This document shows positions 1 to 16,568 of a DNA stretch of 34,657 bases, piece by piece. The notes beneath the pieces were generated by a model. That model had not been told where the DNA came from and made no database searches. It worked only from the letters and a program-made list of their open reading frames with translations. Made by a program: the position numbers and the translations under genes. Position 1 is the first letter of the stretch, and each line of letters opens with the position of its first letter. The DNA lies in NCBI GenBank assembly GCA_018646985.1, contig JABGTR010000008.1, positions 1 to 34,657 on the forward strand. The letters run 5' to 3'. This DNA is from Minisyncoccota bacterium. Its GTDB lineage: Bacteria > Patescibacteriota > Microgenomatia > UBA1400 > PJMF01.

Positions 1-338
1 CTTTGAGAGTAAGTTCTAATCTCTTCTAACTTACCCTGATCCATTAAATCAACTAGTGATCCAAGATCTCCCGCATTCCTACTCAACCTATCCGGAGCCC
101 AAGTTAAAATGCCGTTAAACATGCCTTTATCTATGTCGGTGAGTAGTTGGACAAAAATTAGCCGATTGCCTGATTTTTTAGCTGAATGACTCTCTTGTCT
201 AACTTCAACTATATTTAAATTTTCCCTTTCTACTAACTCCTTCATCTCCTTAATTTGTGAGCCAATCGACATGGTTTGTCGCTCATCTGACTCAGAAGAT
301 TTGCGGGCATATAGGCAATATTTTATTGTTTCAGTCAT
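1..338 (-). CDS. Large serine recombinase (resolvase/invertase N-terminal catalytic domain), truncated by the left window edge
   Basis: Reverse complement from ATG at 338 reads MTETIKYCLYARKSSESDERQTMSIGSQIKEMKELVERENLNIVEVRQESHSAKKSGNRLIFVQLLTDIDKGMFNGILTWAPDRLSRNAGDLGSLVDLMDQGKLEEIRTYSQ. The YARKSS catalytic-serine motif and the 'ILTWAPDRLSRN' motif are typical of large serine recombinases. Not in the ORF track because there is no stop inside the window. Confidence 0.9.
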   Translation of the reverse strand, partial: MTETIKYCLYARKSSESDERQTMSIGSQIKEMKELVERENLNIVEVRQESHSAKKSGNRLIFVQLLTDIDKGMFNGILTWAPDRLSRNAGDLGSLVDLMDQGKLEEIRTYSQ

Positions 339-384
339 CTTATTCCTTTCTCAAGGACTAAGGTACCGTAATGGGTCAGGAAGT

Positions 385-654
385 CTAGTCGGAAGAACTA
401 ATAGTATCCATAACATACTGCAGGGAGTTGTTCTTAAAATTGAGTGGGATGTTATTAACTCCATCAGACATACTGTCTACAAACATAGAATGATTTGATT
501 TAATTGCATTGGGAATAAATTTGTCGTCATAAAACTTTTTAATATCCTTATCCTTAACAAATAGCATTTTGAATAGCTTCAGACACTCTAAGTCTTCAAC
601 ATCAATCATTTCTTCTAGATAGAAATTTAGAACCAGAGCATTATTCAACCCCAC
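385..654 (-). CDS. Hypothetical 89-aa protein immediately upstream of, and co-oriented with, the serine recombinase
   Basis: Open ORF on the recombinase strand, 46 nt upstream of its ATG; acidic/lysine-rich composition plausible for a real small protein; no family recognised. Confidence 0.4.
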   Translation of the reverse strand: MGLNNALVLNFYLEEMIDVEDLECLKLFKMLFVKDKDIKKFYDDKFIPNAIKSNHSMFVDSMSDGVNNIPLNFKNNSLQYVMDTISSSD

Positions 655-724
655 TAAGAGTCTCCCTAGAACATTAGTGAGTTATAATCACCTCTACAAA
701 GGTCTTGTGGCTATGGGACACGTT

Positions 725-748
725 GGTTCCAGACCCACATGCTCCGCA
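725..748 (+). repeat. tRNA-Ser 3'-end-like site #1 (21-nt class): gGTTCCAGACCCACATGCTCCGca
   Basis: GTTC...CTCCG spacing of 21 nt, identical to the real tRNA-Ser T-arm/acceptor geometry; 18/21 identical to site #6. Confidence 0.7.
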
Positions 749-879
749 GTAACGTAAAAATTCTGGTAGACCCATCCTTTTTACTATTATAGATTGATGG
801 TGCTCACTAAATATTCCCTAAGTTCAATGATTTTCAGTTTTGGAGCCTAGATAAAAAAACTTAACTTAGATAGTATATA

Positions 880-3564
880 GTGATGAAAAATAAGTCGTAT
901 CACGATTTATCAACTGCAAATACTCTTGAATCTCTAGGTACATCCACCAAAGGCCTCTCCAGTGCAGAAGCTGGTTTACGCTCAAAAAAATTTGGTTTAA
1001 ATAACCTCCCACAAGAAAAAAAACTATCAGCCACTTGGCTCTTTTTTCAGCAATTTAATAATCCACTTATATATGTATTACTTTTTGCTTTAATCCTTAG
1101 TTTTGCAACAGCTCATTTTGTAGATGGCTGGATAGTTTTGGTGGTAATCCTTGTCAGCGGAGTAGTTGGGTTTTTACAAGAATACAAAGCTGATAAAGCA
1201 CTCGCTCATCTTAGTGAGATGGTAAAGTACAAAACAAGAGTGGTGAGAAATGGTGAAGAGGTTGTAGTAGATCAAGAAAAAATAGTACCAGGAGACATTA
1301 TTGTTTTATCGCCTGGTGACAAGATTCCTGCTGATTCAAGATTACTGGAGGCACAAAATCTTGAGATAATTGAAGCAGCCCTAACAGGAGAGTCTTTTCC
1401 TTCTAAAAAATCTACAACTATTTTATCACAAAACACCTCCCTAGCCGATAGAAAAAATATGGTTTTTATGGGAACTGTGGTAGCCAGAGGAAAAGCAAAG
1501 GCGGTTGTGGTGGCTACAGGCATACACACCGAGTTGGGTCACGTTGCAAACCTAGTAAAAGAAGTAAAGAGTGGACAAACTCCCCTGCAAAAACAACTTG
1601 CTGACTTTGGAAAAACAATGGGCTTGATATTAGTTGGAGTAAATATTCTTATCTTTGGCATTGGGATTTTAACAGGTAAACCTCTCTTTGAGATGCTCAT
1701 GACTTCAGTGGCGGTAGTTGTTTCGGCCGTGCCAGAGGGATTGCTGCCCGCGATGACTGTAGTATTAGCAATTGGCACACAGAAACTTGCCAAGCGCAAG
1801 GGTTTGGTCAGAAAAATGGTGGCCGCAGAAACATTGGGTTCAGTGTCTGTAATCTGTACTGATAAAACAGGAACCATCACTAAAGGAGAGATGAGAGTGG
1901 CAGAGATCATTACTGAAAAAACAAAAGTCTCTCATGATGGAGACTCTTTTTCTTCAACCATTCAACCTGATGGAGAAGCCAGTCATGTTATTGCCCTGAA
2001 AATAGGATTGCTTTGTAATAACGCAATAATTGAAAACCCTGAAGATAATCTCAGTGAATGGACTATTGTTGGTGATGCGACAGAAAAGGCTCTTCTCTTA
2101 GCAGCGCGTTCCGCTGGATTAAAAAAAGAGATGTGGGAAGATGATGAGCCCAGAATTGCCGAGGTTCCTTTTGACTCGGAGTATAAGTTTATGGCGACTC
2201 TACATGAACAGAAAAAAGGCTGTGCGCTTTACGCTAAGGGAGCTCCAGAAAAAATATTATCCCTCTCATCTCACGTAGATGTTGAGGGAATTAAAACAAA
2301 ATTAAGTAACGATAAAAAAAATAAAATTCTTAAACAACATCAACACCTAACTAGTAAGGGCTTGCGAGTACTAGCAGTTGCATATCAACTTGAAGATGAT
2401 CCAGTAGAATCTAGTAAATTTTCTAGGGATAAGGTTAACAATCTAGTGTTTGTGGGGTTAATAGCATTAAAAGACCCAATAAGACCAGAGATTAAGCGCA
2501 CAATTGCACAATGCGTTAGAGCTGGAATTAAACCAATTGTCATTACGGGTGATCATAAACTAACTACCATGGCAATTGTTGCAGAGGCAGGAATCAAGGT
2601 ATCTGCAGATAGTGTCATAGAGGGCAGTGAATTAGATGAAATAACCGATAAAGAGCTTCAAGATGTGGTAAAAAATGTAACTATATTTGCTCGAGTTGAA
2701 CCAAAGCATAAAATCAGAATAATCACTGCCTTCCAGGCAAACGGCGAGGTAGTAGCAATGGTTGGTGATGGCGTTAATGACTCTCCAGCAATTAAAAAGG
2801 CAGATATAGGCGTTGCTGTTGGATCAGGTACCGACGTGGCTAAAGAAACTGCTGATCTAGTCTTAATGGATAGTAATTTCAAAACAATTGTCGAAGCAAT
2901 TAAAAGAGGTAGAATTGTTTTTAACAATATCCGCAAAGTAGTTTTATATCTAGTCACAGATGCATTCTCTGAGATGATTATTGTTGGCAGCTCAGTGGTG
3001 CTAGGACTACCTCTTCCCATTCTGCCTGTTCAAATACTGTGGATAAAACTAATAGAAGACGCGGCACCCGCCATATCCCTATCTTTTGATGAAATTGAAG
3101 AAGATGTAATGAATGAAGCACCAAGGAAAAAAAACGAGCCAATATTAAATACTGAAATGAAAAAACTAATTGCTTTTTACTCAATTATTATGGATGTGAC
3201 ATTATTTGGTCTGTTCTTTTACTATTGGAAAACAAGCGGAGATCTAGATTATGCAAGGACAATAACTTTTGTGGGACTAGGCTTAGCTTCGCTTTTTTAT
3301 ATCTACTCAGTTCGAGGATTAAAGCTGTCAATTCTACAGATAAATCCATTTTCTAACAAGCTTTTTGCTTCAGCCACAGTAGCGGGAATCTTATTGTTTT
3401 TGGTCGCTCTATATGTGCCATTCTTTAATAAAATTCTTCACACAGTGCCGCTGGGAGTTAATGAGTGGCTGGTGCTTGGGGGATATGCCTTAATGAGTAT
3501 TGTTGTGTACGAGGTAGGAAAAAAACTGACTATTGCTAGAACTAGAACCAGCAGTAGCCACTAG
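880..3564 (+). CDS. Cation-transporting P-type ATPase (Ca2+/PacL-like)
   Basis: DKTGTIT phosphorylation motif, TGES, MVGDGVNDSPAIKKADIGVAVG hinge motif, N-terminal cation ATPase domain, about 10 TM helices. Confidence 0.95.
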   Translation: MMKNKSYHDLSTANTLESLGTSTKGLSSAEAGLRSKKFGLNNLPQEKKLSATWLFFQQFNNPLIYVLLFALILSFATAHFVDGWIVLVVILVSGVVGFLQEYKADKALAHLSEMVKYKTRVVRNGEEVVVDQEKIVPGDIIVLSPGDKIPADSRLLEAQNLEIIEAALTGESFPSKKSTTILSQNTSLADRKNMVFMGTVVARGKAKAVVVATGIHTELGHVANLVKEVKSGQTPLQKQLADFGKTMGLILVGVNILIFGIGILTGKPLFEMLMTSVAVVVSAVPEGLLPAMTVVLAIGTQKLAKRKGLVRKMVAAETLGSVSVICTDKTGTITKGEMRVAEIITEKTKVSHDGDSFSSTIQPDGEASHVIALKIGLLCNNAIIENPEDNLSEWTIVGDATEKALLLAARSAGLKKEMWEDDEPRIAEVPFDSEYKFMATLHEQKKGCALYAKGAPEKILSLSSHVDVEGIKTKLSNDKKNKILKQHQHLTSKGLRVLAVAYQLEDDPVESSKFSRDKVNNLVFVGLIALKDPIRPEIKRTIAQCVRAGIKPIVITGDHKLTTMAIVAEAGIKVSADSVIEGSELDEITDKELQDVVKNVTIFARVEPKHKIRIITAFQANGEVVAMVGDGVNDSPAIKKADIGVAVGSGTDVAKETADLVLMDSNFKTIVEAIKRGRIVFNNIRKVVLYLVTDAFSEMIIVGSSVVLGLPLPILPVQILWIKLIEDAAPAISLSFDEIEEDVMNEAPRKKNEPILNTEMKKLIAFYSIIMDVTLFGLFFYYWKTSGDLDYARTITFVGLGLASLFYIYSVRGLKLSILQINPFSNKLFASATVAGILLFLVALYVPFFNKILHTVPLGVNEWLVLGGYALMSIVVYEVGKKLTIARTRTSSSH

Positions 3565-3680
3565 AATTTTATTCCCCTTTGAAGATTGAAAGTTAATAGT
3601 AAAAAAACTATAATATGTCTTTAATACTTGTTTATTTTAAATATCAATTACTACTTATTTAGTTTGTCTATCTGCATAAC

Positions 3681-5231
3681 ATGCCTGCCAACTTAATTAA
3701 TTCTTTTATTAGAGTAAAAAAAGCCATCTTAAAAGTTTTTCAAGCTGAAGACAACCAGTTTAAAAAAAGTAATCGTCAGACTGTCAACCCAGCTAAACCC
3801 CCAGTTCTCTCAACTAAGCAAAAAAATGAACAAGAGCTAAGGCAACTATTTTCACAAATCTTGATTAAGGAAATCAATAAATCAAAGATAAAAGCAAGTA
3901 ACTTACGGGTGGAAAATTTCTTTATTACCCAAGAAGGGGTGAAGGTATTTTTTCACTGCGTTCAAGACACTCAGATCAAAGTCTATTTGCATCTATTGGA
4001 GCTAGCCCACCCTGATCACGCTTTGTGGAAAAAACCCAAGTTTATCGCCACTGTTGGTAATATAGAAGATGATTGGCAATTCCAACAACTAACTAAAACT
4101 AGTGGCGAATACTTAGCTACTTGGCATTCCTCCACTTTGGGCAATAAAGAGATTAAATACCCAAGACACTTAATTAAAAATGAGATTGAGCTTAAGCACA
4201 AACCTCAAATTTTACACAAACCCACTTCTAACCCCATGCTTGAGCCAAATGCAGCAAACTCATGGGAAGCATTTTGCACTTTTAATCCTGCAGCTATTTA
4301 TGCAGCAAATAAAGTTCACTTGCTATATCGAGCTCAAGGTCATGATTATGTTTCGCAAATCGGATACGCCTGCAGTGAAGACGGTCTGACTATTAATAAA
4401 CGCTTAAACCAACCCGCCTATCGTCCCAATCAAAAATTTGAAGGCGCAACCATGCCCCTGGGAAATCCTGGCAATGACTTTGTTTCTGGAGGTGGCTGTG
4501 GAGGTTGTGAGGATCCACGCGCTACTATTATTAACGACCGTGTTTATATGACTTATGTGGCTTACGATGGCTGGAATCCGCCTCGCATAGCATTAACCTC
4601 AATCACCCTATCAGATTTTTTAGATCATAATTTCTTATGGGAAAAACCAGTTTTAATTTCCAAACCCAATGAAGTTAATAAAAGTGCGGTGATTTTTCCA
4701 GAAAAGATCAATAATAAATATGTCATTATGCATCGTGTTTTCCCCAACATCTTAATTGACTTTGTAGATGATTTAAATTTTGATGGCTACACATATCTCA
4801 GGGGTGAGCATAAAATTTCTCCTCGCTCCCAAGAGTGGTGGGACAGCCGAAAAATTGGCGCTGGTGCTCCGCCATTAAAGACCCAAGACGGATGGCTATT
4901 AATTTACCAGGCAGTTGATGATAAGGATGCTAGTGAATATAAGGTTGGTGCGATGCTACTTGATCTGAATGATCCAACCAAAGTACTATATCGTTCTACT
5001 AAACCAATCCTAGAGCCTCGCGAAAAATATGAAAATTACGGCTTTAAAGCTGGGGTGGTTTATCCATGTGGAGCTGTAATTAAAGACAACACCCTATTTG
5101 TTTACTACGGCGGAGCTGACTCATGTGTTTGTGTGGCAACCGTACCACTGAAGCAGTTTTTGGGCAATCTTAAAGCTACTGGAATCACTCACCTTAAACC
5201 TAGTATGCTGGGATTAGGAATAACACAGTAG
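3681..5231 (+). CDS. Glycoside hydrolase family 130 protein (mannoside phosphorylase-like) with an N-terminal extension
   Basis: GCGGCEDPRATIINDRVYMTYVAYDGWNPPRIAL, KSAVIFPEKINNKYVIMHR, and repeated beta-propeller blades typical of GH130. Confidence 0.85.
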   Translation: MPANLINSFIRVKKAILKVFQAEDNQFKKSNRQTVNPAKPPVLSTKQKNEQELRQLFSQILIKEINKSKIKASNLRVENFFITQEGVKVFFHCVQDTQIKVYLHLLELAHPDHALWKKPKFIATVGNIEDDWQFQQLTKTSGEYLATWHSSTLGNKEIKYPRHLIKNEIELKHKPQILHKPTSNPMLEPNAANSWEAFCTFNPAAIYAANKVHLLYRAQGHDYVSQIGYACSEDGLTINKRLNQPAYRPNQKFEGATMPLGNPGNDFVSGGGCGGCEDPRATIINDRVYMTYVAYDGWNPPRIALTSITLSDFLDHNFLWEKPVLISKPNEVNKSAVIFPEKINNKYVIMHRVFPNILIDFVDDLNFDGYTYLRGEHKISPRSQEWWDSRKIGAGAPPLKTQDGWLLIYQAVDDKDASEYKVGAMLLDLNDPTKVLYRSTKPILEPREKYENYGFKAGVVYPCGAVIKDNTLFVYYGGADSCVCVATVPLKQFLGNLKATGITHLKPSMLGLGITQ

Positions 5232-5245
5232 AAAGTATTAATAAT

Positions 5246-7192
5246 TTGGACTCTAAAACTATGACTAATATTACCGTCACTCGCTCTTCGCACAACCCTC
5301 TACTTAAGCCCAGCCCAGAATTGCCGTGGGAAGCAGCAGCTACATTTAACCCTTCAGTTTTGGTTGAAAATAATCAATATCATATGGTTTATCGAGCTTT
5401 ATCGGCTCAGCAAAATTATGAAGGCCAAATTTTTAATCTATCAACCATCGGTCTAACCACTAGTAGTGATGGAACAGAGTTTAATTCAAGCCCACACAAA
5501 CAATTCATTGTTCCTAGTGAGGTTTTTGATCACTATGGCTGTGAAGACCCACGTCTAACAAAAATCGATGACGAGTATTTTATTTGCTACACCGGTCTAT
5601 CTGCCTGGCCACCAAATGCTAAGAGCATTAAGGTAGCCATAGCTATTAGCAATGATCTTAAAATTATTAAAAAAAAGCATTTAGTGACACCATTTAATGC
5701 CAAAGCCATGGCATTGTTTCCAGAGAAAATTAATGGTCAATATGTAGCTGTTCTTACAGTTAACACTGATCAACCACCGGCCCATATTGCCATTGCCAGA
5801 TTTGATTACAAAGAGCAAATCTGGGATCCAGATTTTTGGCGCGATTGGTATCTTCACCTAGAAGATCATATTTTATGGTTGCCTCGTTTTAATACTGATC
5901 ACGTAGAAGTTGGAGCGGTGCCAGTTAAAACTGATAAGGGCTGGGTTTTGATTTATTCTCATATTCAAAACTACCTACAACCAGAAAAAAGAATTTTTGG
6001 GATTGAAGCTGCCTTATTGGATGTCTCTGATCCACAAAAAATTATTGGCCGGACTAGCAAACCTCTCTTACAACCAGTCTTAAAATACGAGCTGGAGGGT
6101 ATGGTTGAAAATGTTATCTTTCCCTCTGGAGCAGCTATCGTAGGTGATGAGTTTAAAATTTATTATGGAGCAGCTGATACAGTAGGTGCTGAGGCGAGTG
6201 TTAGATTAGATGTCTTTCTAAGTTTACTAAAAAATAGTGATACTAAAGGAATACTTAAGTTTAATAAATTTAAAGACAACCCCATCCTATCTCCACACGA
6301 AGACCAGCCATGGCAAGCTCAGGCTGTATTTAATAGCGCTGCACTTTATGAGAATGACCAATTTTATTTACTTTTTAGAGCCATGTCTTGGGATAATACT
6401 TCTACCATTGGCTGTGCTGTCAGTGATGATGGTTTCAACTTTACTCAATTAGCCAATGATCCTATTTATGTGCCAAGGATGGAGTTTGAGAGTAAATATA
6501 GGCCAAATGCTTTTTCAGGATGTGAGGATCCACGCCTTACAAAATTTGGCGATCGTATTTACATGTTTTATACTGCCTATGACGGACAGCGCCCACCTCG
6601 AGTAGCATTGACATCAATTAAAGAATCAGACTTCTTTGCTCACAATTGGCTATGGAAAGAGCCTATTTTGATCTCCAATCCAAAAATAGATAATAAAAAT
6701 GCTTGCTTATTTCCTGAAAAAATTAACGATAAATTTGTTGTATTGCACCGTACCGCTGGCCATGAGATAGCTATTGATTTTATAAATGAGCTATCAGACC
6801 TCAATCAAGAAAATATTTTATTAGAAAAAGAAGCGGCAATTAGCCCCAATCCAGATGGGTGGGACAGCGCAAAAATTGGTATTGCTGGTCCACCAATTAA
6901 AACAGAGAAAGGCTGGTTATTAATTTATCATGGGGTAAGTAGGTTTGATAAAAACTATCGATTAGGTTACATGATCCTTGACTTGGAAGATCCCTTTCAT
7001 GTTTTATATCGCAGTTCGTATCCGATTTTAGAACCACAAATGGAGTTTGAGAAAAAAGGCATTATTGATAATGTAGTTTTTTCTTGCGGTGCTGTTGAAA
7101 AAGATGGCTTATTCTACCTTTATTATGGTGGTGCTGACAAAGTTATGTGCGTAGCAACAATGGAAATTAAAAAGCTGCTGGATGTAGTTTAA
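5246..7192 (+). CDS. Tandem two-domain GH130 protein
   Basis: Two consecutive GH130 domains: first with YGCEDPRLTKIDDEYFICYTGLSAWPP, second with SGCEDPRLTKFGDRIYMFYTAYDGQRPPRVAL; each is followed by an 'LFPEKIN' and a 'GWLLIY'-type segment. Confidence 0.85.
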   Translation: MDSKTMTNITVTRSSHNPLLKPSPELPWEAAATFNPSVLVENNQYHMVYRALSAQQNYEGQIFNLSTIGLTTSSDGTEFNSSPHKQFIVPSEVFDHYGCEDPRLTKIDDEYFICYTGLSAWPPNAKSIKVAIAISNDLKIIKKKHLVTPFNAKAMALFPEKINGQYVAVLTVNTDQPPAHIAIARFDYKEQIWDPDFWRDWYLHLEDHILWLPRFNTDHVEVGAVPVKTDKGWVLIYSHIQNYLQPEKRIFGIEAALLDVSDPQKIIGRTSKPLLQPVLKYELEGMVENVIFPSGAAIVGDEFKIYYGAADTVGAEASVRLDVFLSLLKNSDTKGILKFNKFKDNPILSPHEDQPWQAQAVFNSAALYENDQFYLLFRAMSWDNTSTIGCAVSDDGFNFTQLANDPIYVPRMEFESKYRPNAFSGCEDPRLTKFGDRIYMFYTAYDGQRPPRVALTSIKESDFFAHNWLWKEPILISNPKIDNKNACLFPEKINDKFVVLHRTAGHEIAIDFINELSDLNQENILLEKEAAISPNPDGWDSAKIGIAGPPIKTEKGWLLIYHGVSRFDKNYRLGYMILDLEDPFHVLYRSSYPILEPQMEFEKKGIIDNVVFSCGAVEKDGLFYLYYGGADKVMCVATMEIKKLLDVV

Positions 7193-7320
7193 TAAATTTC
7201 TGCTCATCATAATCTAAAAAAACAATGTTGTTTAGTAGAATGACACAATCAGAGCTTCGCAACAGCTTAAATGTAAGCTAAAATGGCTCAAAACCTATAG
7301 CAACTAGAGGTAAGTATGGT

Positions 7321-7346
7321 GTGGGTTCGAATCCCTCCACCTCCGC
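7321..7346 (+). repeat. tRNA-Ser 3'-end copy, site #2 (21-nt class): GTGGGTTCGAATCCCTCCACCTCCGC
   Basis: 26 nt exactly identical to the 3' end of tRNA-Ser(GGA) at 16541-16566; no tRNA 5' half precedes it. Confidence 0.95.
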
Positions 7347-7392: not shown

Positions 7393-9123
7393 TTAGTCTT
7401 TAACAAATGAAAAAGTAGATAAAATTTCATCTAACTCTTCGTATCCAACTTGATAAGTGTCAATTTTTATATACTCTGTATCATTTTTGGGTATATAAAT
7501 ATCTATGTCACTAAACATTCCTGGAGGATTAACTATCACTGCATTTAATTTGGCAATAGTAGTGTAGGGTTTTGCTTCTTCAACTCCTTCTGAGATTAAA
7601 AAATCAAGTAAAGGCTGTTCTTTTGATTTAACTTTTTTTGAAAAAGATAAATATCCACTAGTACAAATTGGACCACCAGTTTCCGTATAACATTCCTCAG
7701 GCAGATTTATTTTCTCTCCATCAAAGCTCCATTCTTGAGGATATTTTAAAGAGAAGCCTAGCTGGCTATTCTTTAACTCTTTCCAATTTATTGTTGAAGT
7801 CAAGAATTTTATACTCGATAAAATCTGTTCTCCATCGGAGTAATCACTAATCTCTTTATGATGAACTTCAAATAAATATATATAGCCATCTTTACTAACA
7901 ACACTCATCTTGAATGATGTGCCACTCTCTTCACTATATGCGGACACCTCTGCGTAGTAAGCATCTCTCCCTGCAACTATTGAAGAAGAAATATTTTCAA
8001 CTACCACTTTTCTACTCCACAGATTATTTTGAATATCAAAACCAATATTTTCCCACCAATCTTTTGCTGATAAATCAGACTTATAAATAAAAGCTCTAAA
8101 AGATGAAGAGCTGGTATTTGGTTTTGCTACGCTGATTTCTACCAAAGCATCTCTATTATTTTCATCACTTTCAAAAATCTGATAACCTTCAGCTATTGGA
8201 TAATCAAATGAAAAGCCATACTCTTCATTAATGTAATTTTTGTAAACCTGATCTGATTGATTTACCTCAATTGATTCAAATATCTCATTCATGGCACCAC
8301 TTGGTAAAGGTTCCTGCCCTCCATGAAAGACATATAGATTTTTATTAAACTCAACCATATAGCGTGGAATTGAACCTGGCCCTCCTTCTTCTGAGTAACA
8401 ACTGTCAGGTTTAAAATCAACTACACTCACATTCTTATTTTCAAGTGAGACTGGTTTAGAATACTCTCTCTTTAAAGTCCATCCAGCTCCCTTACTCTCA
8501 CAAAAATCTAAAGTATCGCTGTTGTAGTTAGCGATATATTCTTCTGCAGACATTTCTGAATTTAAAGATGTAATTTTACAAATATTTAAGCCACCAGCTA
8601 AATAAATATGATTACTATTGTCACCACCAGACACTGCCTTTTCCCAGACTGGCTCATAGTATTGGCTAGTGAAATAACCATTGCCAATTTTTACACAATC
8701 ATCAACTAAGGGGTCAGCTTCGGCAGTTTCTGAAGAAGTAAAGCCGTGACAACCTTCAAATCCATTGCAGTATGGAACTCTCAATTTAAAGTCAGACAAA
8801 ACAACCTCTTCCCAAGGGCTAAAAGCTTCCACCCAAATTGAACTATTTTCCTTAAAATCTTCAGAAAGTAGCTCCTCTAATACAGAGCCTTGAGTTTCTG
8901 TTCTATCAAAACCAACAGGTTCATTATTTACTTGAGTAGAAAAGAAAGAAACAATAATAATCAAAGCTAAAGAAATCAGTGTCCCCACCAAAAGACTTTT
9001 CTTATTAATTCTCAGAAAAGATCTGTTAACAACAGGTTCTTGATCTATATCTATTTGAGTGTCTATAGCTTCACTCTTCTGATCTAGATTATTATTTTTA
9101 TCTTCTTGAGGATTTAGCGTCAT
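7393..9123 (-). CDS. Membrane-anchored hypothetical protein with repeated PsbP-like segments
   Basis: N-terminal TM helix (SLLVGTLISLALIIIVSFFS) and repeated 'EYGFSFDYP'/'QLGFSLKYPQEWSF' motifs. Confidence 0.7.
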   Translation of the reverse strand: MTLNPQEDKNNNLDQKSEAIDTQIDIDQEPVVNRSFLRINKKSLLVGTLISLALIIIVSFFSTQVNNEPVGFDRTETQGSVLEELLSEDFKENSSIWVEAFSPWEEVVLSDFKLRVPYCNGFEGCHGFTSSETAEADPLVDDCVKIGNGYFTSQYYEPVWEKAVSGGDNSNHIYLAGGLNICKITSLNSEMSAEEYIANYNSDTLDFCESKGAGWTLKREYSKPVSLENKNVSVVDFKPDSCYSEEGGPGSIPRYMVEFNKNLYVFHGGQEPLPSGAMNEIFESIEVNQSDQVYKNYINEEYGFSFDYPIAEGYQIFESDENNRDALVEISVAKPNTSSSSFRAFIYKSDLSAKDWWENIGFDIQNNLWSRKVVVENISSSIVAGRDAYYAEVSAYSEESGTSFKMSVVSKDGYIYLFEVHHKEISDYSDGEQILSSIKFLTSTINWKELKNSQLGFSLKYPQEWSFDGEKINLPEECYTETGGPICTSGYLSFSKKVKSKEQPLLDFLISEGVEEAKPYTTIAKLNAVIVNPPGMFSDIDIYIPKNDTEYIKIDTYQVGYEELDEILSTFSFVKD

Positions 9124-9293
9124 ATCTTTTTATTGTATATGAAGTAAAATTTGTAAACAAGCTTGCACAGACTAACTTACAGAGCTCATGTTTTGTAAGA
9201 TTTCAAATGTAATCTAAAAAAGCGGTTTAGTTTTAGACTATGTTAAAGGTAAGTGAGATTAACTGCTAAAATAGGATCAGGAGTGATCAAGAA

Positions 9294-9324
9294 GTAGGTT
9301 CTAACTTAATCTCAGGTCCTCCGC
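9294..9324 (+). repeat. tRNA-Ser 3'-end-like site #3 (26-nt class): gtagGTTCTAACTTAATCTCAGGTCCTCCGc
   Basis: GTTCTAA...CTCCGCA with 26-nt spacing, intergenic, + strand. Confidence 0.55.
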
Positions 9325-9393
9325 AACCAAGAATTGGAATTTAAATTCTAATTAAGTTACAATAAGTTTAGTTATTTAATTGGAGACAAAACT

Positions 9394-9591
9394 ATGAATG
9401 TTGATAAAAAAACCACAAAGGTAGCTTTAGTTTCTCTGGCTATAGCTTTAGTTTGGTCTACCCCATCTATCAAGGCAGTTTCAATTGGAACATCTACTCC
9501 TACAGAGACAGTAATTAGCGTATTGATTCGTACTGTAATAGTTTTTGCCTTTGTAAGACTTGTCCTATCTATTGCTGGCAAGAAAAAATAA
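9394..9591 (+). CDS. 65-aa small membrane protein
   Basis: Two hydrophobic segments (VALVSLAIALVWSTPSIKAV; VISVLIRTVIVFAFVRLVLSIAG), basic tail KKK; the only plausible gene between two repeat sites. Confidence 0.6.
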   Translation: MNVDKKTTKVALVSLAIALVWSTPSIKAVSIGTSTPTETVISVLIRTVIVFAFVRLVLSIAGKKK

Positions 9592-9614
9592 GCAATCCAC
9601 TTTTCTCAAATAAA

Positions 9615-9642
9615 GTTCCAAGATCGTCCCACGCTCCCCGCA
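9615..9642 (+). repeat. tRNA-Ser 3'-end-like site #4 (26-nt class): GTTCCAAGATCGTCCCACGCTCCCCGCA
   Basis: 22/28 identical to site #5, same 26-nt spacing, intergenic. Confidence 0.6.
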
Positions 9643-9648
9643 AAAAAA

Positions 9649-10437
9649 ATGAATCAAGAACAACAGGAGTTTTCAAAAAGAATAGCTGCTCTCACCGATG
9701 TAAGTTTATTGCTCACAAACAATCTTAAAGAAATTAAATTTGGCCCAGATGACTTAGAAAAACTTAAAAAAATAAATTTTCCTGTAATATTTGCTACCAC
9801 GCATCTATCAGATCTGGATACAACTGCCTTTCTTAATGTCTTGGCGAAAGAAACTAAAATTATGGTTTCTGTAGCATATGAATCTTCTCAAGAAAGTCCC
9901 CTTCAAAATTCAGTCGGTTGGTTTAATTTATCAATCGCAAAATTAATGGTTGGTAAAGAAAATTTCTTGCCGATTACCTCTCATCAGGGAAAGGGCGTGC
10001 TTGCACCCAAAGACTATGAGTCTCAAGCTGAAATAATCAAAAATGGAAGATCTATTGTCATGGCTGGCTACCATTCTAGAAAAATAGACAAGGCACGAGG
10101 AATAAGACATATTGGCCACAATCAACGTGGAGTAACCTTACCTAATAAGGGTGGAGTCGGAGCAGTTTTTTTATCTATTCTATCTGGTGCTCCAATAGTA
10201 CCAGTGGCCATTGACATAGAAAGTGATAAATTTAGACCAGGAATCTCTGTAAAAATAGGTGAGCTTATCTCTCCAAAAGTTAGCTCTGATTTTAGCAACT
10301 GGGAAAAAATGACTTCAGAAGAAAAAAGATTCGCAATTAGAGAATTAAGACATTACTCTGACATGATATTAAAATCTCAAGCTTCGATGTTGCCCACTGA
10401 AAAAAGAGGGAGACAATCTCAGGACTTACTTTATTGA
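9649..10437 (+). CDS. 1-acyl-sn-glycerol-3-phosphate acyltransferase-like (PlsC superfamily)
   Basis: HX4D motif (THLSDLD), GRSIVMAGYHS segment, APIVPVAID motif. Confidence 0.7.
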   Translation: MNQEQQEFSKRIAALTDVSLLLTNNLKEIKFGPDDLEKLKKINFPVIFATTHLSDLDTTAFLNVLAKETKIMVSVAYESSQESPLQNSVGWFNLSIAKLMVGKENFLPITSHQGKGVLAPKDYESQAEIIKNGRSIVMAGYHSRKIDKARGIRHIGHNQRGVTLPNKGGVGAVFLSILSGAPIVPVAIDIESDKFRPGISVKIGELISPKVSSDFSNWEKMTSEEKRFAIRELRHYSDMILKSQASMLPTEKRGRQSQDLLY

Positions 10438-10446
10438 GAGTTAAAA

Positions 10447-10474
10447 GTTCCAATTTCTTCCTACCCTCTCCGCA
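10447..10474 (+). repeat. tRNA-Ser 3'-end-like site #5 (26-nt class): GTTCCAATTTCTTCCTACCCTCTCCGCA
   Basis: 22/28 identical to site #4, same length, intergenic; lies 10 nt after the preceding stop codon and 2 nt from the next gene's stop. Confidence 0.6.
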
Positions 10475-10476
10475 GC

Positions 10477-11301
10477 TTAAGATCCATATGCTGTTAAATA
10501 ATCATTATATGATTTCATCAATCCCTTTATCGATGGATGAATTTCAGAATATTCAACCTGTCCAATTTTTCGAATAGGCAATATTTTAGAGCTGGTGCTA
10601 GTTAAAAAGCCTCCATCAAACTTAGCGATGCTATTTACACTAAGCTCCTTTTCAATAAATTTAAATCCCAAGCTGATGGCAATAGGTTTCAACGTCATCA
10701 AAGTAACACCAGATAACATACGAGACAATGGAGCATGATAGATATTTTTTCCTTTTACAAAACAGAGATTCGTTCTTGTTCCCTCAAGTACAATTCCTTT
10801 ATTGTCTACCAAAAGAGCATCGTAACAACCGACCTCTTTTGCTTTTTTGTAAGCAATATAACTACCCAGCATATTAAGAGTTTTTGCAGTAGGATATTTT
10901 CTCTCATACTTCTCAAGTATTAGACTAACTCCTTTTTTATAAAATTTTCTATTCGGATACAAAGGTGCTAATGGCAAAATAGTAAGACTAACTTCATTAC
11001 CTCCAATCAACAATAGCTTGATTTTATATGAATCTTGCTCTAATTTTTGAACAAGCTCTATAATTTTTTTCTTAACATAAGTTTTAGTAAATTTATGTTC
11101 AAGACCAATTGCAGTAGCAGAATATAGAAGACGCTCAACGTGTTGATCTACAAAATACAATACACCTTTCCTAACTTTTAGACTTTCATATACTCCATAA
11201 CCATAACAGTATTCAATATTATTGAAAGGAATTGTCGCTTTTTTAATAGGCTTAATAACTCCATTTAGTGAGAAGTGTTTGAAACGAAATATTTCATCCA
11301 T
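10477..11301 (-). CDS. Class IV aminotransferase (BCAT / D-Ala aminotransferase / ADC lyase fold)
   Basis: YGYGVYESLKVRKG, LNMLGSYIAYKKAKEVGCYDALLVDNKGIVLEGTRTNLCFVKG typical of PLP fold-type IV. Confidence 0.85.
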   Translation of the reverse strand: MDEIFRFKHFSLNGVIKPIKKATIPFNNIEYCYGYGVYESLKVRKGVLYFVDQHVERLLYSATAIGLEHKFTKTYVKKKIIELVQKLEQDSYKIKLLLIGGNEVSLTILPLAPLYPNRKFYKKGVSLILEKYERKYPTAKTLNMLGSYIAYKKAKEVGCYDALLVDNKGIVLEGTRTNLCFVKGKNIYHAPLSRMLSGVTLMTLKPIAISLGFKFIEKELSVNSIAKFDGGFLTSTSSKILPIRKIGQVEYSEIHPSIKGLMKSYNDYLTAYGS

Positions 11302-11402
11302 TGTTATTAACAGTATAATGCATTTTTAATACAAGAAAAATAATTGGAAGATAAAGGGTCATTGATTTATTAGAGTGACAATATGGTTTGCAAGACACTA
11401 TT

Positions 11403-11426
11403 GTTCTAGACCAGCATGCTCCGTCA
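11403..11426 (+). repeat. tRNA-Ser 3'-end-like site #6 (21-nt class): GTTCTAGACCAGCATGCTCCGtca
   Basis: 18/21 core identity to site #1, 24/32 over an extended gapless alignment; followed by inverted repeat GTCATTA-CC-TAATGAC. Confidence 0.7.
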
Positions 11427-11430
11427 TTAC

Positions 11431-12669
11431 CTAATGACTTTGAATCCTAATTAGTTTCCTAGCAGCCGCCATCCCCAAAGCTTGTAAGATTGCTCCAGCA
11501 GCAATCACTGTCATTACTCCCAGTTTTTTATCTAAATAATGAAAAGCAGCTAATATTAGCAGCATTGAACTGACTCTTCCTAAATTAATAAAGAACTCAT
11601 GATCAAGCACATAAGCATAGTTATCTGCTATCAGCCCTTCACCTTGAGTTTCTGTGGCCTTTGACATAATCGGAATATAAACAAACCAGAAGAGATTTCC
11701 TGAAACAATCATTGCCGTAATGTAAATAATTAACGTCAACTGACCAAAATTTACTAACAATAACAAAACTGCAACTAGCAGTGACAGAGTGCTCAACATA
11801 AGTAGTCTGAATCTATCCTTAGGCTGCATCTTACGTCCCACCATGTAAATAATTAGCCCCACCACCACCGCTAGTGCTGATTTTATAACTCCTAATACCC
11901 CCTCATCTCCAATAAAAGATAGAGTGATCGCTTCCACCACGGTTGCTCCCACCGCCATCTGCATAGTAGATGCTAAAACAAAAGTTCTAAATAATTTCCA
12001 ATCTGGACTTACTTTCTTAGGCCAAAAATGAGTTACTTTAAGAGTTGGAAACTCTTTAATTGAATTTAAAAAAATAGTTCCAACAAAGAGTACTATTACA
12101 CCAAAACCCATGATAGTCACATAAGCACCTTCAGCTCCAAAATTGGGCTGAGTACGAGACCAAACAATTAGCCAACCTGCTAAAAGTGGCAAAATTACTC
12201 CACTTAAATTTCCCACTAAAGTTACAATCCCAGAGATGTAATCTCGCTCTCTATCTTCAGTCAAAGTTGGGAAAATAAAGTTGCGGTTAGCCCAATAAAA
12301 ACCTGATGACAAACCAACTATCAAGCCCACACTAAAAATATTCCATAAGCTCAAAGTCTGAAATAAAAATAAAATTGCCAATGACCCACCTTGCAAAATC
12401 GAAGCAGGAATAAAAATGCGTCGCACATCCATAAACTTAATCAAAAAAGCATTAAGGTGAAAACCTAGTAAAATCATAATATAGACACCTAAATTAAAAA
12501 CTGCGATTGAAGAGATACTGTTAGTGCTAATAAAGAGATAGGCATTAGCAAACACAAAAATCAAATTATTGGAAATAATTTGACAAAAAATAGACAGCAC
12601 AAATTTTTGTACATCTGGTCTAAGCTGATGGAAAATACTCAGTTCACGCCTGAGCCGATCTCTTAACAT
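11431..12669 (-). CDS. MFS-type transporter
   Basis: About 12 hydrophobic helices, MFS-like pattern; overlaps the downstream-oriented GT2 gene in an operon. Confidence 0.75.
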   Translation of the reverse strand: MLRDRLRRELSIFHQLRPDVQKFVLSIFCQIISNNLIFVFANAYLFISTNSISSIAVFNLGVYIMILLGFHLNAFLIKFMDVRRIFIPASILQGGSLAILFLFQTLSLWNIFSVGLIVGLSSGFYWANRNFIFPTLTEDRERDYISGIVTLVGNLSGVILPLLAGWLIVWSRTQPNFGAEGAYVTIMGFGVIVLFVGTIFLNSIKEFPTLKVTHFWPKKVSPDWKLFRTFVLASTMQMAVGATVVEAITLSFIGDEGVLGVIKSALAVVVGLIIYMVGRKMQPKDRFRLLMLSTLSLLVAVLLLLVNFGQLTLIIYITAMIVSGNLFWFVYIPIMSKATETQGEGLIADNYAYVLDHEFFINLGRVSSMLLILAAFHYLDKKLGVMTVIAAGAILQALGMAAARKLIRIQSH

Positions 12670-13588
12670 AAGAGCTTATTATACCTTTAATTGTCCCCAC
12701 CATTACTCCCCAATCTGAGACTATTTGCAAAACTGGCAGGTAATACCAGCTTCTATCTAGATACTGAGCATTTTTCCACATCGCCCAGAATGAGTAAATA
12801 CTAGCACTAACCACTACAAAAGCAGCACATAAAATCCAATTTGGACAGAAAAAGACAGCCGCTAAAAATAAGAAGATAAGATAACGACAGAAAATTAAAT
12901 ATGACTTAATACGCGTAATGCCAGCTCGAGCATCGTACTGAGCCATTCCCATCACAGTTTGATAAAAATCTTGCCAGGTTTCAATCGGCCACCAAGCTAC
13001 CTTAGCTTTCTGAGTAAAGGTAAGTTTGAATTTAGCTTGTTCTAGGCGATGGGCAAAATCATAGTCTTCGCTCAAAGTTAAACTCTCGTCAAAACTACCT
13101 ACTGCTTGCCAAACCTGCTTCTTAATCATCATCGATCTGGTAGCTGGTAAGAAATGAGCTGGATTAACTCTATCTGGCATGACTAGCATGTATGGCACTA
13201 CCGCTGCCTGAAAAGCTGTCTCTGGAGCAGCGTCATAATAACCAGCTACTACTTCAGCCTGAGATTTAGTAGCTGCTTGAGCTAGTTTTTCCAACCAATC
13301 AGTGTGAGGCATACATCCAGCATCGGTAATAGCGACCCATTCATTTTTTGCTAGTTTGATACCAAAATTTCTGCCAGCACTCCGATTGCCTTTTTTAATA
13401 ATTAATTTCAAAGGAAAGCTAGGATGTTTTTTTTGGAAGACTTTAATTAATTGAACTGTATCATCAGTGGAACCAGCATCAATAATAATAACTTCAGCAG
13501 GCTGATATGTTTGCGAAGTCAAACCTAATAGTAAAGCTGCAATTGTTTCGACTTCATTTAATACTGTCACTATCACTGAAATATTCAT
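12644..13588 (-). CDS. Glycosyltransferase family 2
   Basis: ISVIVTVLNEVETI...VIIIDAGSTDDTV...GRNFGIKLAKNEWVAITDAGC. Confidence 0.9.
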   Translation of the reverse strand: MNISVIVTVLNEVETIAALLLGLTSQTYQPAEVIIIDAGSTDDTVQLIKVFQKKHPSFPLKLIIKKGNRSAGRNFGIKLAKNEWVAITDAGCMPHTDWLEKLAQAATKSQAEVVAGYYDAAPETAFQAAVVPYMLVMPDRVNPAHFLPATRSMMIKKQVWQAVGSFDESLTLSEDYDFAHRLEQAKFKLTFTQKAKVAWWPIETWQDFYQTVMGMAQYDARAGITRIKSYLIFCRYLIFLFLAAVFFCPNWILCAAFVVVSASIYSFWAMWKNAQYLDRSWYYLPVLQIVSDWGVMVGTIKGIISSYVKRSAQA

Positions 13589-14643
13589 TTAAGCTCCCAC
13601 AGCTGTTGATACTGATCTGCAATTTTCTTCCAAGTTTGCTGCTGGGCCCAAAGACGGGCTTGACGCGAATACTTATCTAAAACCAGAGTATTGTCTAGGA
13701 GCTCAAGAATTTGTTTTTTTAGCTGTTCTTCACTAGTTGAGACTAGCATGTAAGTAGAGCCTGGATATGACTTTAAGTATCGCTCTTTTAACTGTTGTGA
13801 ATAGAGTGCGCAAACTATTTTTCCCTGAGCTTGAGCTTCTAAAATAGACAGGTAGGAGGCAGACCAAACTAGGTCTGCTTTTGAGATATATTTAGTTAAA
13901 TCTGTAACCATCCCCGTGACTTGCCCATACCGCTCACATTCTTCTCGGTAAAAACCATCGCCTACCCAAGTTATTTTAATATCTAAAATTGATTTTAATT
14001 TTTTAGCCAAAGTCAAATACTTTTCTAAATCATTCTCTGCTTCCAACCGACCCACAAAAACGATATGTATTTTTTTTCCTATCTTCTTAGCTTTAAGCTG
14101 ATCATTTATAACTCCCCCATAGATAACTAAATCAGGCTTGTCCCAATAAAATTCTTGGATGTAGTCACCCACATGAATCGTCTTTAGAGCCAGCTTGCTC
14201 CAACACCACCGGGCTAACTTATTTTTGAAAGGCACAGGGAACTGTCCCTCCCAACCATGAAAAGTCAGGTAAATTTTCGACCAAAACAGAGGTAAAAGCG
14301 GCAATAGCCACCAATAAACATCATGAACATGAATTATGTCTGCTTTAAGTAAAAGTTGTGAATGTTTAGCCACCTGCTGCCAAACTGTTAATTTTTCTAT
14401 TAATTTAAGATCATAATTTTTCCCCAAATCAATCCTATTCACCTCAACCCTATTAATAGTTTCTTGAGCAGGCAAGCTGCTGTCGTGGAGCTGAGTTAAA
14501 ACTGAAACCTGATGACCTTGTTTAATTAGTTCTTTACTCACCTGATTTACATGAGTTTCAACGCCACCTAAGCGTGGCTCATAAAAAGGAGTTATCTGTA
14601 AAATTTTTACGGGCTTAGTTTTTATTACGGCTGTGGTAGGCAT
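13585..14643 (-). CDS. Glycosyltransferase family 4/1 (GT-B)
   Basis: ILQITPFYEPRLGGVETHVNQVSKELIKQGHQVSVLT; VFVGRLEAENDLEKYL. Confidence 0.9.
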   Translation of the reverse strand: MPTTAVIKTKPVKILQITPFYEPRLGGVETHVNQVSKELIKQGHQVSVLTQLHDSSLPAQETINRVEVNRIDLGKNYDLKLIEKLTVWQQVAKHSQLLLKADIIHVHDVYWWLLPLLPLFWSKIYLTFHGWEGQFPVPFKNKLARWCWSKLALKTIHVGDYIQEFYWDKPDLVIYGGVINDQLKAKKIGKKIHIVFVGRLEAENDLEKYLTLAKKLKSILDIKITWVGDGFYREECERYGQVTGMVTDLTKYISKADLVWSASYLSILEAQAQGKIVCALYSQQLKERYLKSYPGSTYMLVSTSEEQLKKQILELLDNTLVLDKYSRQARLWAQQQTWKKIADQYQQLWELK

Positions 14644-14663
14644 TAAGTTTTATCCTTACTGGC

Positions 14664-16424
14664 ATGATATCACTTACGCTCTGCGTTTTCCTATTTTTAC
14701 TGGCTAAACCAATCCAGGCTAGTGAGGTTTTATTTACAGATGAATTTATTGTTGATAATTTGGAGAGTTGGGCTGTAGTGCGAAACAGCCAGCACCATCA
14801 CCCTGAAAAACCGTGCTTTAATGGCGGATATCCAGCAGAATGGGAAGTCACTGATGGAAAACTCGGCATTAATATTAACAGCGGTGCTTGTATCACCGAA
14901 ATAATTCCCCAAAACCTAGATTTATCTGAGGTCAATAACTATGAGTTTGAGTTTGAGTGGTACTTTCCAATATCTACTCATATGGATCGCAATGTCTTGA
15001 TAAAATGGCAAGACGTGGATAACTGGTATGGGCTACATATTTTAGACGATAAGATATTGTTGGAAAAAGTAATTGCTGGAAAAGCTGAATCTTTGTACAA
15101 CAACTGGGGATATTATCAATTTGAAGCTGATCAAAACTATGATTTTAGAATTAGTGTCATCAATGACCTAATTACAGTCTGGATAAATGACCAGCAAATT
15201 TTACAAACTCTAGACAGACCTCCTTTCTTAATAAGAAATAAAACAGTGGGTTTTCGAGCCAGCAGTGGCAATATTTTCCAATCAAGCTCCTGGTTTGATA
15301 ACTTAATTGTTAAATCTTTAGATCAAGATGGTGAAAAAAAACTTAGTGTCCCACTCTATAAACAACATGATCCTAAGTGGAAAAATCATGAGTATGATCA
15401 TGCAAATGATTGGTCGAAGTCACCATCCATTGCCCGTTGGGGTTGTGCTCTGACTGCGATGACGATGATTCTGGACTACCATAGCATTAATCAACTCCCC
15501 AACGATCAAAAACTGAACCCAGCCAGTTTAAACGCTTGGCTGCAGGATCAAGATGATGGTTTTATTGGTGGAGGGTTAATCAACTGGCTGGCGGTGACTC
15601 GTTTAACTAAAACAATAAGCGAAGTACTGAAAACACCTACTCTAGAATACGAGTGGCTAGAAGGAGAAATTAAAAATGCAGTTGATGAGATTGATAAAAA
15701 TCAGCCAGTAGTTTTACAAATACCAGGGCATTTCTTAGTTGGTAATGGCTATGATGCCTCAAAAACAGATTTGCTCATTAAAGACCCAGCTTACCAACGA
15801 GATCTGCTAAGCCAACACGAGGCTGACCTACAGTCAATTCGCTCATTTAAACCTAGTTATACTGACTTGAGTTATCTACTAATTGTCCATGACCCAGAAA
15901 CAAAAATCTCTTTAATTGATGAAAGTGGTCAAATACCAGCTAAATTAAAAATCTACCAAGAATATGTTAAAAGCAATGAAGCTGAAGAACAAACAAAAAT
16001 TAAAATAATTCAAAGCTTAGCCAAACCAGAAAATGAAAAGTATCTACTAAAAACTGAGGGCGGAATAATTGAAATCTATACTTATGACACTGAAGGTGAA
16101 GTCACAATATTGACGCAAGAAGTTATTGGCAACAAAATTTTTGAGCTAAACTATGATTCTCAAAGTAAAAGTCAGTTAATAGAAATAACTAATAAATTTA
16201 CCCTCCTAAGAGATTTACTTAAAACCTTGTATGAGTCTGGAGAAATAACTACTAAATATGCTTATCTAAAACTAGACCAACTAGCTGCTTATGCTGAAAA
16301 TGATGAGCTAAACCGAGAAAGATATCAAGAACTGATCATTAAAAAAATTGGTGATTTAACTGAATTTATCACTAGCTCAGATGTTATAATTAAACACCTG
16401 AGGTCGTATAGCTCAGCTGGCTAG
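14664..16424 (+). CDS. Secreted protein with a concanavalin-like N-terminal domain and a C39-like cysteine peptidase domain
   Basis: Signal peptide; 'SVPLYKQHDPKWKNHEY...RWGCALTAMTMILDYH...QPVVLQIPGHFLVGNGYD...LLIKDPAY' C39-like pattern. Stop codon lies inside tRNA-Val. Confidence 0.8.
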   Translation: MISLTLCVFLFLLAKPIQASEVLFTDEFIVDNLESWAVVRNSQHHHPEKPCFNGGYPAEWEVTDGKLGININSGACITEIIPQNLDLSEVNNYEFEFEWYFPISTHMDRNVLIKWQDVDNWYGLHILDDKILLEKVIAGKAESLYNNWGYYQFEADQNYDFRISVINDLITVWINDQQILQTLDRPPFLIRNKTVGFRASSGNIFQSSSWFDNLIVKSLDQDGEKKLSVPLYKQHDPKWKNHEYDHANDWSKSPSIARWGCALTAMTMILDYHSINQLPNDQKLNPASLNAWLQDQDDGFIGGGLINWLAVTRLTKTISEVLKTPTLEYEWLEGEIKNAVDEIDKNQPVVLQIPGHFLVGNGYDASKTDLLIKDPAYQRDLLSQHEADLQSIRSFKPSYTDLSYLLIVHDPETKISLIDESGQIPAKLKIYQEYVKSNEAEEQTKIKIIQSLAKPENEKYLLKTEGGIIEIYTYDTEGEVTILTQEVIGNKIFELNYDSQSKSQLIEITNKFTLLRDLLKTLYESGEITTKYAYLKLDQLAAYAENDELNRERYQELIIKKIGDLTEFITSSDVIIKHLRSYSSAG

Positions 16425-16475
16425 AGCACACGATTCACATTCGTGAGGTCCCTGGTTCGAGTCCAGGTACGACCA
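16402..16475 (+). tRNA. tRNA-Val(CAC)
   Basis: Acceptor GGTCGTA/TACGACC, D-arm GCTC..GAGC, anticodon arm CACGA-TTCACAT-TCGTG, T-arm CCTGG-TTCGAGT-CCAGG. Confidence 0.95.
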
Positions 16476-16482
16476 CATACCA

Positions 16483-16568
16483 GGAGGTGTCGCATAGTGG
16501 CCAATTGCACACGCTTGGAAAGCGTGAGTCTTATGACTCCGTGGGTTCGAATCCCTCCACCTCCGCCA
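16483..16568 (+). tRNA. tRNA-Ser(GGA) with encoded CCA
   Basis: Acceptor GGAGGTG/CACCTCC, G73, long variable arm (GAGTCTTATGACTC), anticodon loop TTGGAAA, ends GCCA. Confidence 0.95.

Follow-up and report, generated by a model that had tools for sequence, protein, structure and literature searches.

A large serine recombinase within a tandem cassette array behind a tRNA-Ser gene in a Patescibacteria genome

The window analysed here is the whole of contig C34 (34,657 nt), part of an 881-kb, 45-contig bin that is 97.6 % complete. At its left edge it carries the start of a gene for a large serine recombinase (LSR), which faces a repeated attachment-like site, and this arrangement raises the question of whether the enzyme is the platform integrase of an integron-like system. 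This had been proposed in an earlier sequence-only reading, in which the site just upstream of the recombinase (site #1) was taken as the primary attachment site next to its integrase, with the cassettes on its far side. The window contains the following relevant features.

1..338, minus strand: N-terminal 112 codons of the LSR, the remainder lying on C22:142-1105 (141-bp exact overlap, continuous ORF, Pfam, colinear homologues)
360..392, plus strand: conserved element AAGGTACCGyn...AAGTCTAG shortly before the start codon of the LSR (nhmmer and strict pattern); a candidate operator, leader or attI-like element
385..654, minus strand: small ORF of 89 aa between the LSR and site #1, without a family match
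660..724, plus strand: type II left arm of site #1, the right end of the LSR cassette; the same arm occurs at G007:C26, G007:C6 and the G005 sites
725..773, plus strand: site #1, a 49-bp cassette–cassette junction; left half GGTTCCAGACCCACATGCTCCGC at 725-747, right half (P') ending in GACCC at 769-773
748..7323, plus strand: cassette 4, without a recombinase; P-type cation ATPase at 880-3564, GH130-family proteins at 3681-5231 and 5246-7192
7236..7346, plus strand: right end of the array, made up of a type I left arm and 26 nt (7321-7346) identical to the 3' end of tRNA-Ser(gga), with no P' arm after it
16402..16568, plus strand: tRNA-Val(cac) and a second, unoccupied tRNA-Ser(gga), its 84 nt identical to the occupied copy on C21

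The minus-strand ORF beginning at 338 does carry the LSR signatures ascribed to it, YARKSSESDERQ and WAPDRLSRN, and within the window it comprises 112 aa (338..3) before running off the edge. Positions 1-141 of the window are the exact reverse complement of C22:1-141 from the same assembly, and extending the contig leftward through this overlap, as had been suggested, yields one continuous ORF of 432 aa in which the Pfam domains Resolvase (E-value 2.3e-18), Recombinase (1.3e-15) and Zn_ribbon_recom (2.6e-6) follow one another in that order. As C34 and C22 together specify a single ORF with all of these domains, the gene is edge-truncated rather than broken, and a pseudogene is ruled out. The protein is colinear with homologues 57–82 % identical to it, including across the contig junction, and its C-terminal ~90 aa can be aligned across them; YARKSS and DRLSRN (catalytic Ser/Arg motifs Y.R.S and DRLSR) are invariant in seven homologues. 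The best matches in the PDB are the SPbeta YokA integrase (9dxh) and the TP901-1 integrase (3bvp). The LSR is an active-looking enzyme.

The far end of C22 leads on to a third contig, C21, whose final 141 bases are exactly the start of reverse-complemented C22; such overlaps would be the expected product of a de Bruijn assembler with k=141 at graph branches. Read through both overlaps in the direction of the window plus strand, the inferred order is tRNA-Val, intact tRNA-Ser(gga), P' arm, cassette 1, junction C22b, cassette 2, junction C22a, LSR cassette, site #1, cassette 4 and the tRNA-Ser-like end at 7346. The two tRNA genes occupy C21:26096-26255 (tRNA-Ser at C21:26172-26255) and the P' arm follows immediately, so that both further sites and an intact tRNA-Ser, which had been proposed as something to look for beyond the recombinase, are present there.

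Site #1 was correctly placed upstream of the LSR start, its GGTTC...CCGC half ending at 747, 409 nt from the start, and it is matched by the P' profile (hit R1) at 76.7 bits. It is one instance of a recurring site of ~49 bp that opens with GGTTC, takes 23 nt to reach ...CCGC and, 21 nt later, ends in GACCC. The sequence is repeated at C22a and C22b, half sites are found at window 7324-7346 and behind the C21 tRNA-Ser, and the GGTTC-44-GACCC geometry is present at four sites of the source genome. No recombinase is present in cassettes 1, 2 or 4, the LSR being in cassette 3 of the four, between two junction sites (C22a and site #1). With a site on each side of the LSR, site #1 is ruled out as an attI; it is a junction inside the array, and the primary site is the tRNA-Ser gene 7.4 kb to the left of the window. 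Cassettes do lie on the far side of site #1 (cassette 4), but also on the other side (cassettes 1 and 2). As site #1 is a junction and the tRNA-Ser the primary site, the integron topology is only partly right: recombinase-free cassettes with a common site are indeed present, but the LSR is itself in a cassette and the fixed point is the tRNA gene. None of what had been named as speaking against the association of recombinase and sites was encountered, as the gene is no pseudogene, sites and a tRNA flank its other side, and relatives carry the LSR beside the same sites.

The cassettes range from 1.3 to 6.6 kb, and no conjugation genes were seen in them. Cassette 1 carries a CsoR-family repressor and a DUF4395 protein, and cassette 2 three larger ORFs, one of them a metallophosphoesterase; a PADLOC search of the source-genome array returned no convincing defence gene. 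Elsewhere in the source genome, a further P' site lies behind tRNA-Ser(cga) (C21:19358-19441), whilst serine recombinases outside the array are found only on C26 and C17. In the congener G007, the tRNA-Ser(gga) of the same locus holds a different short element with a type II arm end, which marks the locus as a hot spot.

The same arrangement recurs in relatives. Six other loci of the family carry an LSR 57–82 % identical to this one; the P' arm is on the tRNA side in all five that are readable (the sixth contig is too short), and an intact tRNA-Ser is on the contig in four of these five (tga, cga, cga and act), the fifth ending in a tRNA-like core. The close homologues in G007, G022 (two copies), G021 and G038 lie at most about 1.0–1.6 kb behind the P' arm. 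In most relatives no other element separates the LSR from the tRNA, towards which its 3' end points; this is the topology of a tRNA island. A profile of the core plus P', searched in 88 genomes of the order, detected 37 sites in 20 of them. Directly after an intact tRNA were 21 of the 36 readable sites (19 at tRNA-Ser, covering all five isoacceptors, and two at tRNA-Asp), the rest being junctions or contig ends, and many P' sites had no LSR adjacent. Nearly every genome had only two tyrosine recombinases, both Xer-sized, and none was listed beside a P' site. In one LSR-free array (L097, G007:C26:320-12345), candidate defence models in PADLOC are matched by an AAA_13/DUF2130 pair and by a helicase of 1562 aa. 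Behind a tRNA-Ser(gct) in G038 (L093/L147, G038:C1, minus strand near 820900-823300) three more GGTTCCAGACC ends lie ~0.9–1.4 kb apart, a spacing that suggests very small cassettes.

A wider survey took in the best 80 LSR loci among genome contigs, all from named Patescibacteria lineages or from bacterial MAGs without a lineage name. A tRNA within 3 kb had its 3' end facing the LSR 3' end at 43 of the 66 loci with room, and none had the same orientation; on the LSR 5' side, used as an internal control, a tRNA lay within 3 kb at one of 61 loci. The targets include tRNAs for Ser, Glu, Gln, Asn, Asp, Trp, Arg and Lys. Measured from the T-loop G (before TTC) to the start of GA[CT]C, the distance was 43 in 23 loci and 40–46 in most others, and the right-end motif GGTTCYAGACC occurred 15 times on the tRNA strand against three on the other. 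For most LSR loci no attR was found within 10 kb, and searches for long tRNA direct repeats upstream of the 80 LSRs gave, for most loci, runs comparable with those in shuffled sequence. More distant LSRs of the same family (≤41 % identity, >5 kb of 3' room), meant as a negative control, faced a tRNA within 821 bp in 15 of 16 cases, the lone exception being the C17 LSR of the source genome; tRNA targeting is thus broader than this clade. Most of the other, longer LSRs of the family (L228-L247) likewise face tRNA 3' ends (Asn, Val, Leu, Gln, Pro, Met, Ser and Gly), and their arms differ.

Sites of LSRs are typically ~50 bp long with a short core. Here, a GACC box ~43 bp past the T-loop GTTC of the tRNA delimits a ~49-bp site whose midpoint is the 3' terminus of the tRNA, GGTTC and GACC being about equidistant from a centre just past the last tRNA base. 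Right ends at five loci (L176, L189, L190, L209 and L225) have GGTTC-like starts and share with the host tRNA only its last few bases and not the acceptor stem, which would place the crossover at the tRNA 3' terminus. Two other ends speak against this: at window 7321-7346 (26 nt) and at L096 (18 nt) the match to the host tRNA extends through the acceptor stem, for which a T-loop crossover would be the better fit. Both ends were found by tRNA similarity and are therefore a biased sample. Left arms fall into types I, II and III, and one consensus does not account for them all. No circular form or excision product was seen.

Taken together, we favour, at a probability of roughly 0.78, the reading that an LSR lineage of Patescibacteria integrates at tRNA 3' ends, here at tRNA-Ser, with integrase-free cassettes stacked in tandem. 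On this model the LSR would read the chromosomal site partly as the conserved T-loop box GGTTC, ~20 bp inside the tRNA, whilst the element half, P', would supply a GACC box at the same distance on the opposite side, the two halves making up the ~49-bp site. Because this site is centred on the end of the tRNA, insertion would leave the tRNA gene whole. The left arm that ends each cassette could pair with the P' arm of the next, and as the arms would remain functional after each insertion, successive insertions would stack in tandem. Of the four cassettes behind the tRNA-Ser(gga), the three that carry cargo only were most likely moved in trans by the LSR, which may still be at work on these sites today.

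Close to the LSR start, a further conserved sequence has to be considered. This element, AAGGTACCGC-N9-12-AAGTCTAG and ~30 bp long, lies ~17–380 bp upstream of the LSR start at about 40 of the 80 loci (by nhmmer, weak matches included), among them L149, L150, L157, L159, L162-L165 and L175; its strict pattern gives 20 matches on its own strand against none on the opposite one. At some loci it is present in two copies around small ORFs.

Three other explanations were weighed against tRNA-targeting by the LSR. It is improbable that a tyrosine integrase makes the insertions and the LSR is mere cargo. The 3' ends of tRNA genes are the usual target of such enzymes (PMC4383910, PMC5704250), T-loop/3'-end targeting is classic for them, the 26 nt of tRNA repeated at the array end (7321-7346) are of tyrosine-like core length, and in one genome of the family (G036:C49) a tRNA-Ser-like match does lie within ~100 bp of a non-Xer tyrosine recombinase. 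Against this, the only two tyrosine recombinases of the source genome are Xer-sized and outside the array (one is split across contig ends), no P' site in the family has one adjacent, and the LSR is the site-adjacent gene in every readable close relative; moreover, most right ends have only the last few tRNA bases in common, and a 49-bp site is of LSR size. We consider it just as doubtful that the locus is a strict serine-recombinase integron, in which a platform LSR with its own attI gains cassettes singly. Integrase-free cassettes with common sites would suit it, as would the conserved element directly upstream of the LSR start at about half of the loci, beyond which cargo diverges between relatives. 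The LSR, however, is part of the array and has a site on either side, the fixed point is a tRNA gene, a small ORF separates site #1 from the conserved element, and cassette insertion at that element was not seen.

The remaining alternative is an assembly chimera, in which C21, C22 and C34 derive from more than one strain or species with mobile cassettes in common and the four-cassette array as drawn does not exist. The contig joins are branch-point adjacencies of the assembly graph, the contigs breaking exactly at the 141-bp overlaps, and if two strains shared cassettes a chimera could result. In addition, the array is flanked on both sides by diverged tandem copies of one block (window 7393-16568 and C21:19484-26255), comprising a 576/538-aa gene, an MFS gene, two glycosyltransferases, a 586-aa protein, tRNA-Val and tRNA-Ser; the 586-aa protein is 77 % identical between the two copies. 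In the congeners G007 and G008 the MFS–glycosyltransferase block, which ends in tRNA-Val and tRNA-Ser(gga), is present once, and a search run without a positive control found no 576-aa neighbour gene in six relatives. In G007, however, a single block joins the left flank to the right flank without interruption, which places C21 and C34 side by side; the only tRNA-Ser genes for tga, cga and gct in this 97.6 % complete bin are on C21, and the LSR ORF continues through the join. A chimera is therefore unlikely, if slightly less so than the other two explanations.

In its topology the array corresponds to a genomic island at a tRNA gene, enlarged by tandem accretion, and not to an integron platform. 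It resembles an integron in having recombinase-free cassettes that share a site and a single integrase, but the recombinase is a serine and not a tyrosine enzyme (no intI is involved), the cassettes are multi-gene and the integrase is inside a cassette rather than outside the array beside an attI. As in the tRNA islands of tyrosine integrases (Islander class), insertion is at a tRNA 3' end, the tRNA stays whole, the integrase lies beside the tRNA and islands occur in tandem; an intact tRNA at one end (C21:26172-26255) and a displaced 3' fragment at the other (window 7321-7346) were both found. Unlike that class, the integrase is an unrelated serine enzyme, the island contains no tyrosine integrase, and most right ends share a short core at the end of the tRNA and no long stretch of identity. 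The large serine integrases of phiC31, Bxb1, TP901-1 and SPbeta (YokA) have the same Resolvase/Recombinase/Zn-ribbon order, ~50-bp sites and a short core, as most right ends do here, whereas this LSR is 432 aa with a shorter C-terminal part and targets tRNA gene 3' ends. Staphylococcal SCC elements (Ccr) also combine serine recombinases, tandem arrays and cargo cassettes without a recombinase of their own (for SCC-like islands, PMC10581047). All three traits recur here, but SCC elements insert in rlmH with ccr genes, in contrast with one short LSR at tRNA-Ser and other tRNA genes in Patescibacteria. In ICE/IME/CIME accretion, integrase-less elements with intact att sites stack beside an integrase-bearing one (PMC5704250), much as integrase-free cassettes stack with the LSR-bearing one here; the differences are the cassette size, the lack of visible conjugation genes and the tRNA-targeting serine integrase.

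According to reviews, it is tyrosine integrases that use tRNA 3' ends (PMC5704250); serine integrases, by the account of open reviews, avoid tRNA genes, and the word tRNA is absent from the main text of the main LSR survey (PMC10083194). In the open-access literature on Patescibacteria and serine recombinases we found nothing on tRNA targeting, and an earlier notice elsewhere is possible. We class the locus as a genomic island of a serine integrase that is unusual in its target and in having cassettes free of integrase, and it contradicts the working rule for serine integrases. It provides a simple, testable recognition rule (T-loop GGTTC, tRNA 3' end and GACC at fixed spacing), identifies a route by which the reduced genomes of Patescibacteria acquire multi-gene cassettes, likely with defence genes among them, and makes available numerous short LSRs whose sites can be predicted. 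More tentatively, and with our doubts somewhat outweighing our confidence, there may be a Patescibacteria-wide cassette system built on serine recombinases, in which the enzyme reads the universal T-loop box at a fixed distance and can therefore land at tRNAs of many isotypes. Behind these tRNAs, small cassettes without an integrase, anti-phage genes among their cargo in some cases, would be collected and shuffled in trans. Such a system would do for the tiny genomes of Patescibacteria what integrons do elsewhere.

Two further observations concern neighbouring systems. The tyrosine recombinase of G036 (C49:583-1151), ~100 bp from its tRNA-Ser-like match, represents a separate tRNA-targeting system in the same family. 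Finally, 43 relatives of the LSR (L252-L294) are on IMG/VR viral contigs, among which no clear excised circle was recognised; several of them face tRNA genes, and hence the same enzyme may be in use among Patescibacteria phages or prophages.
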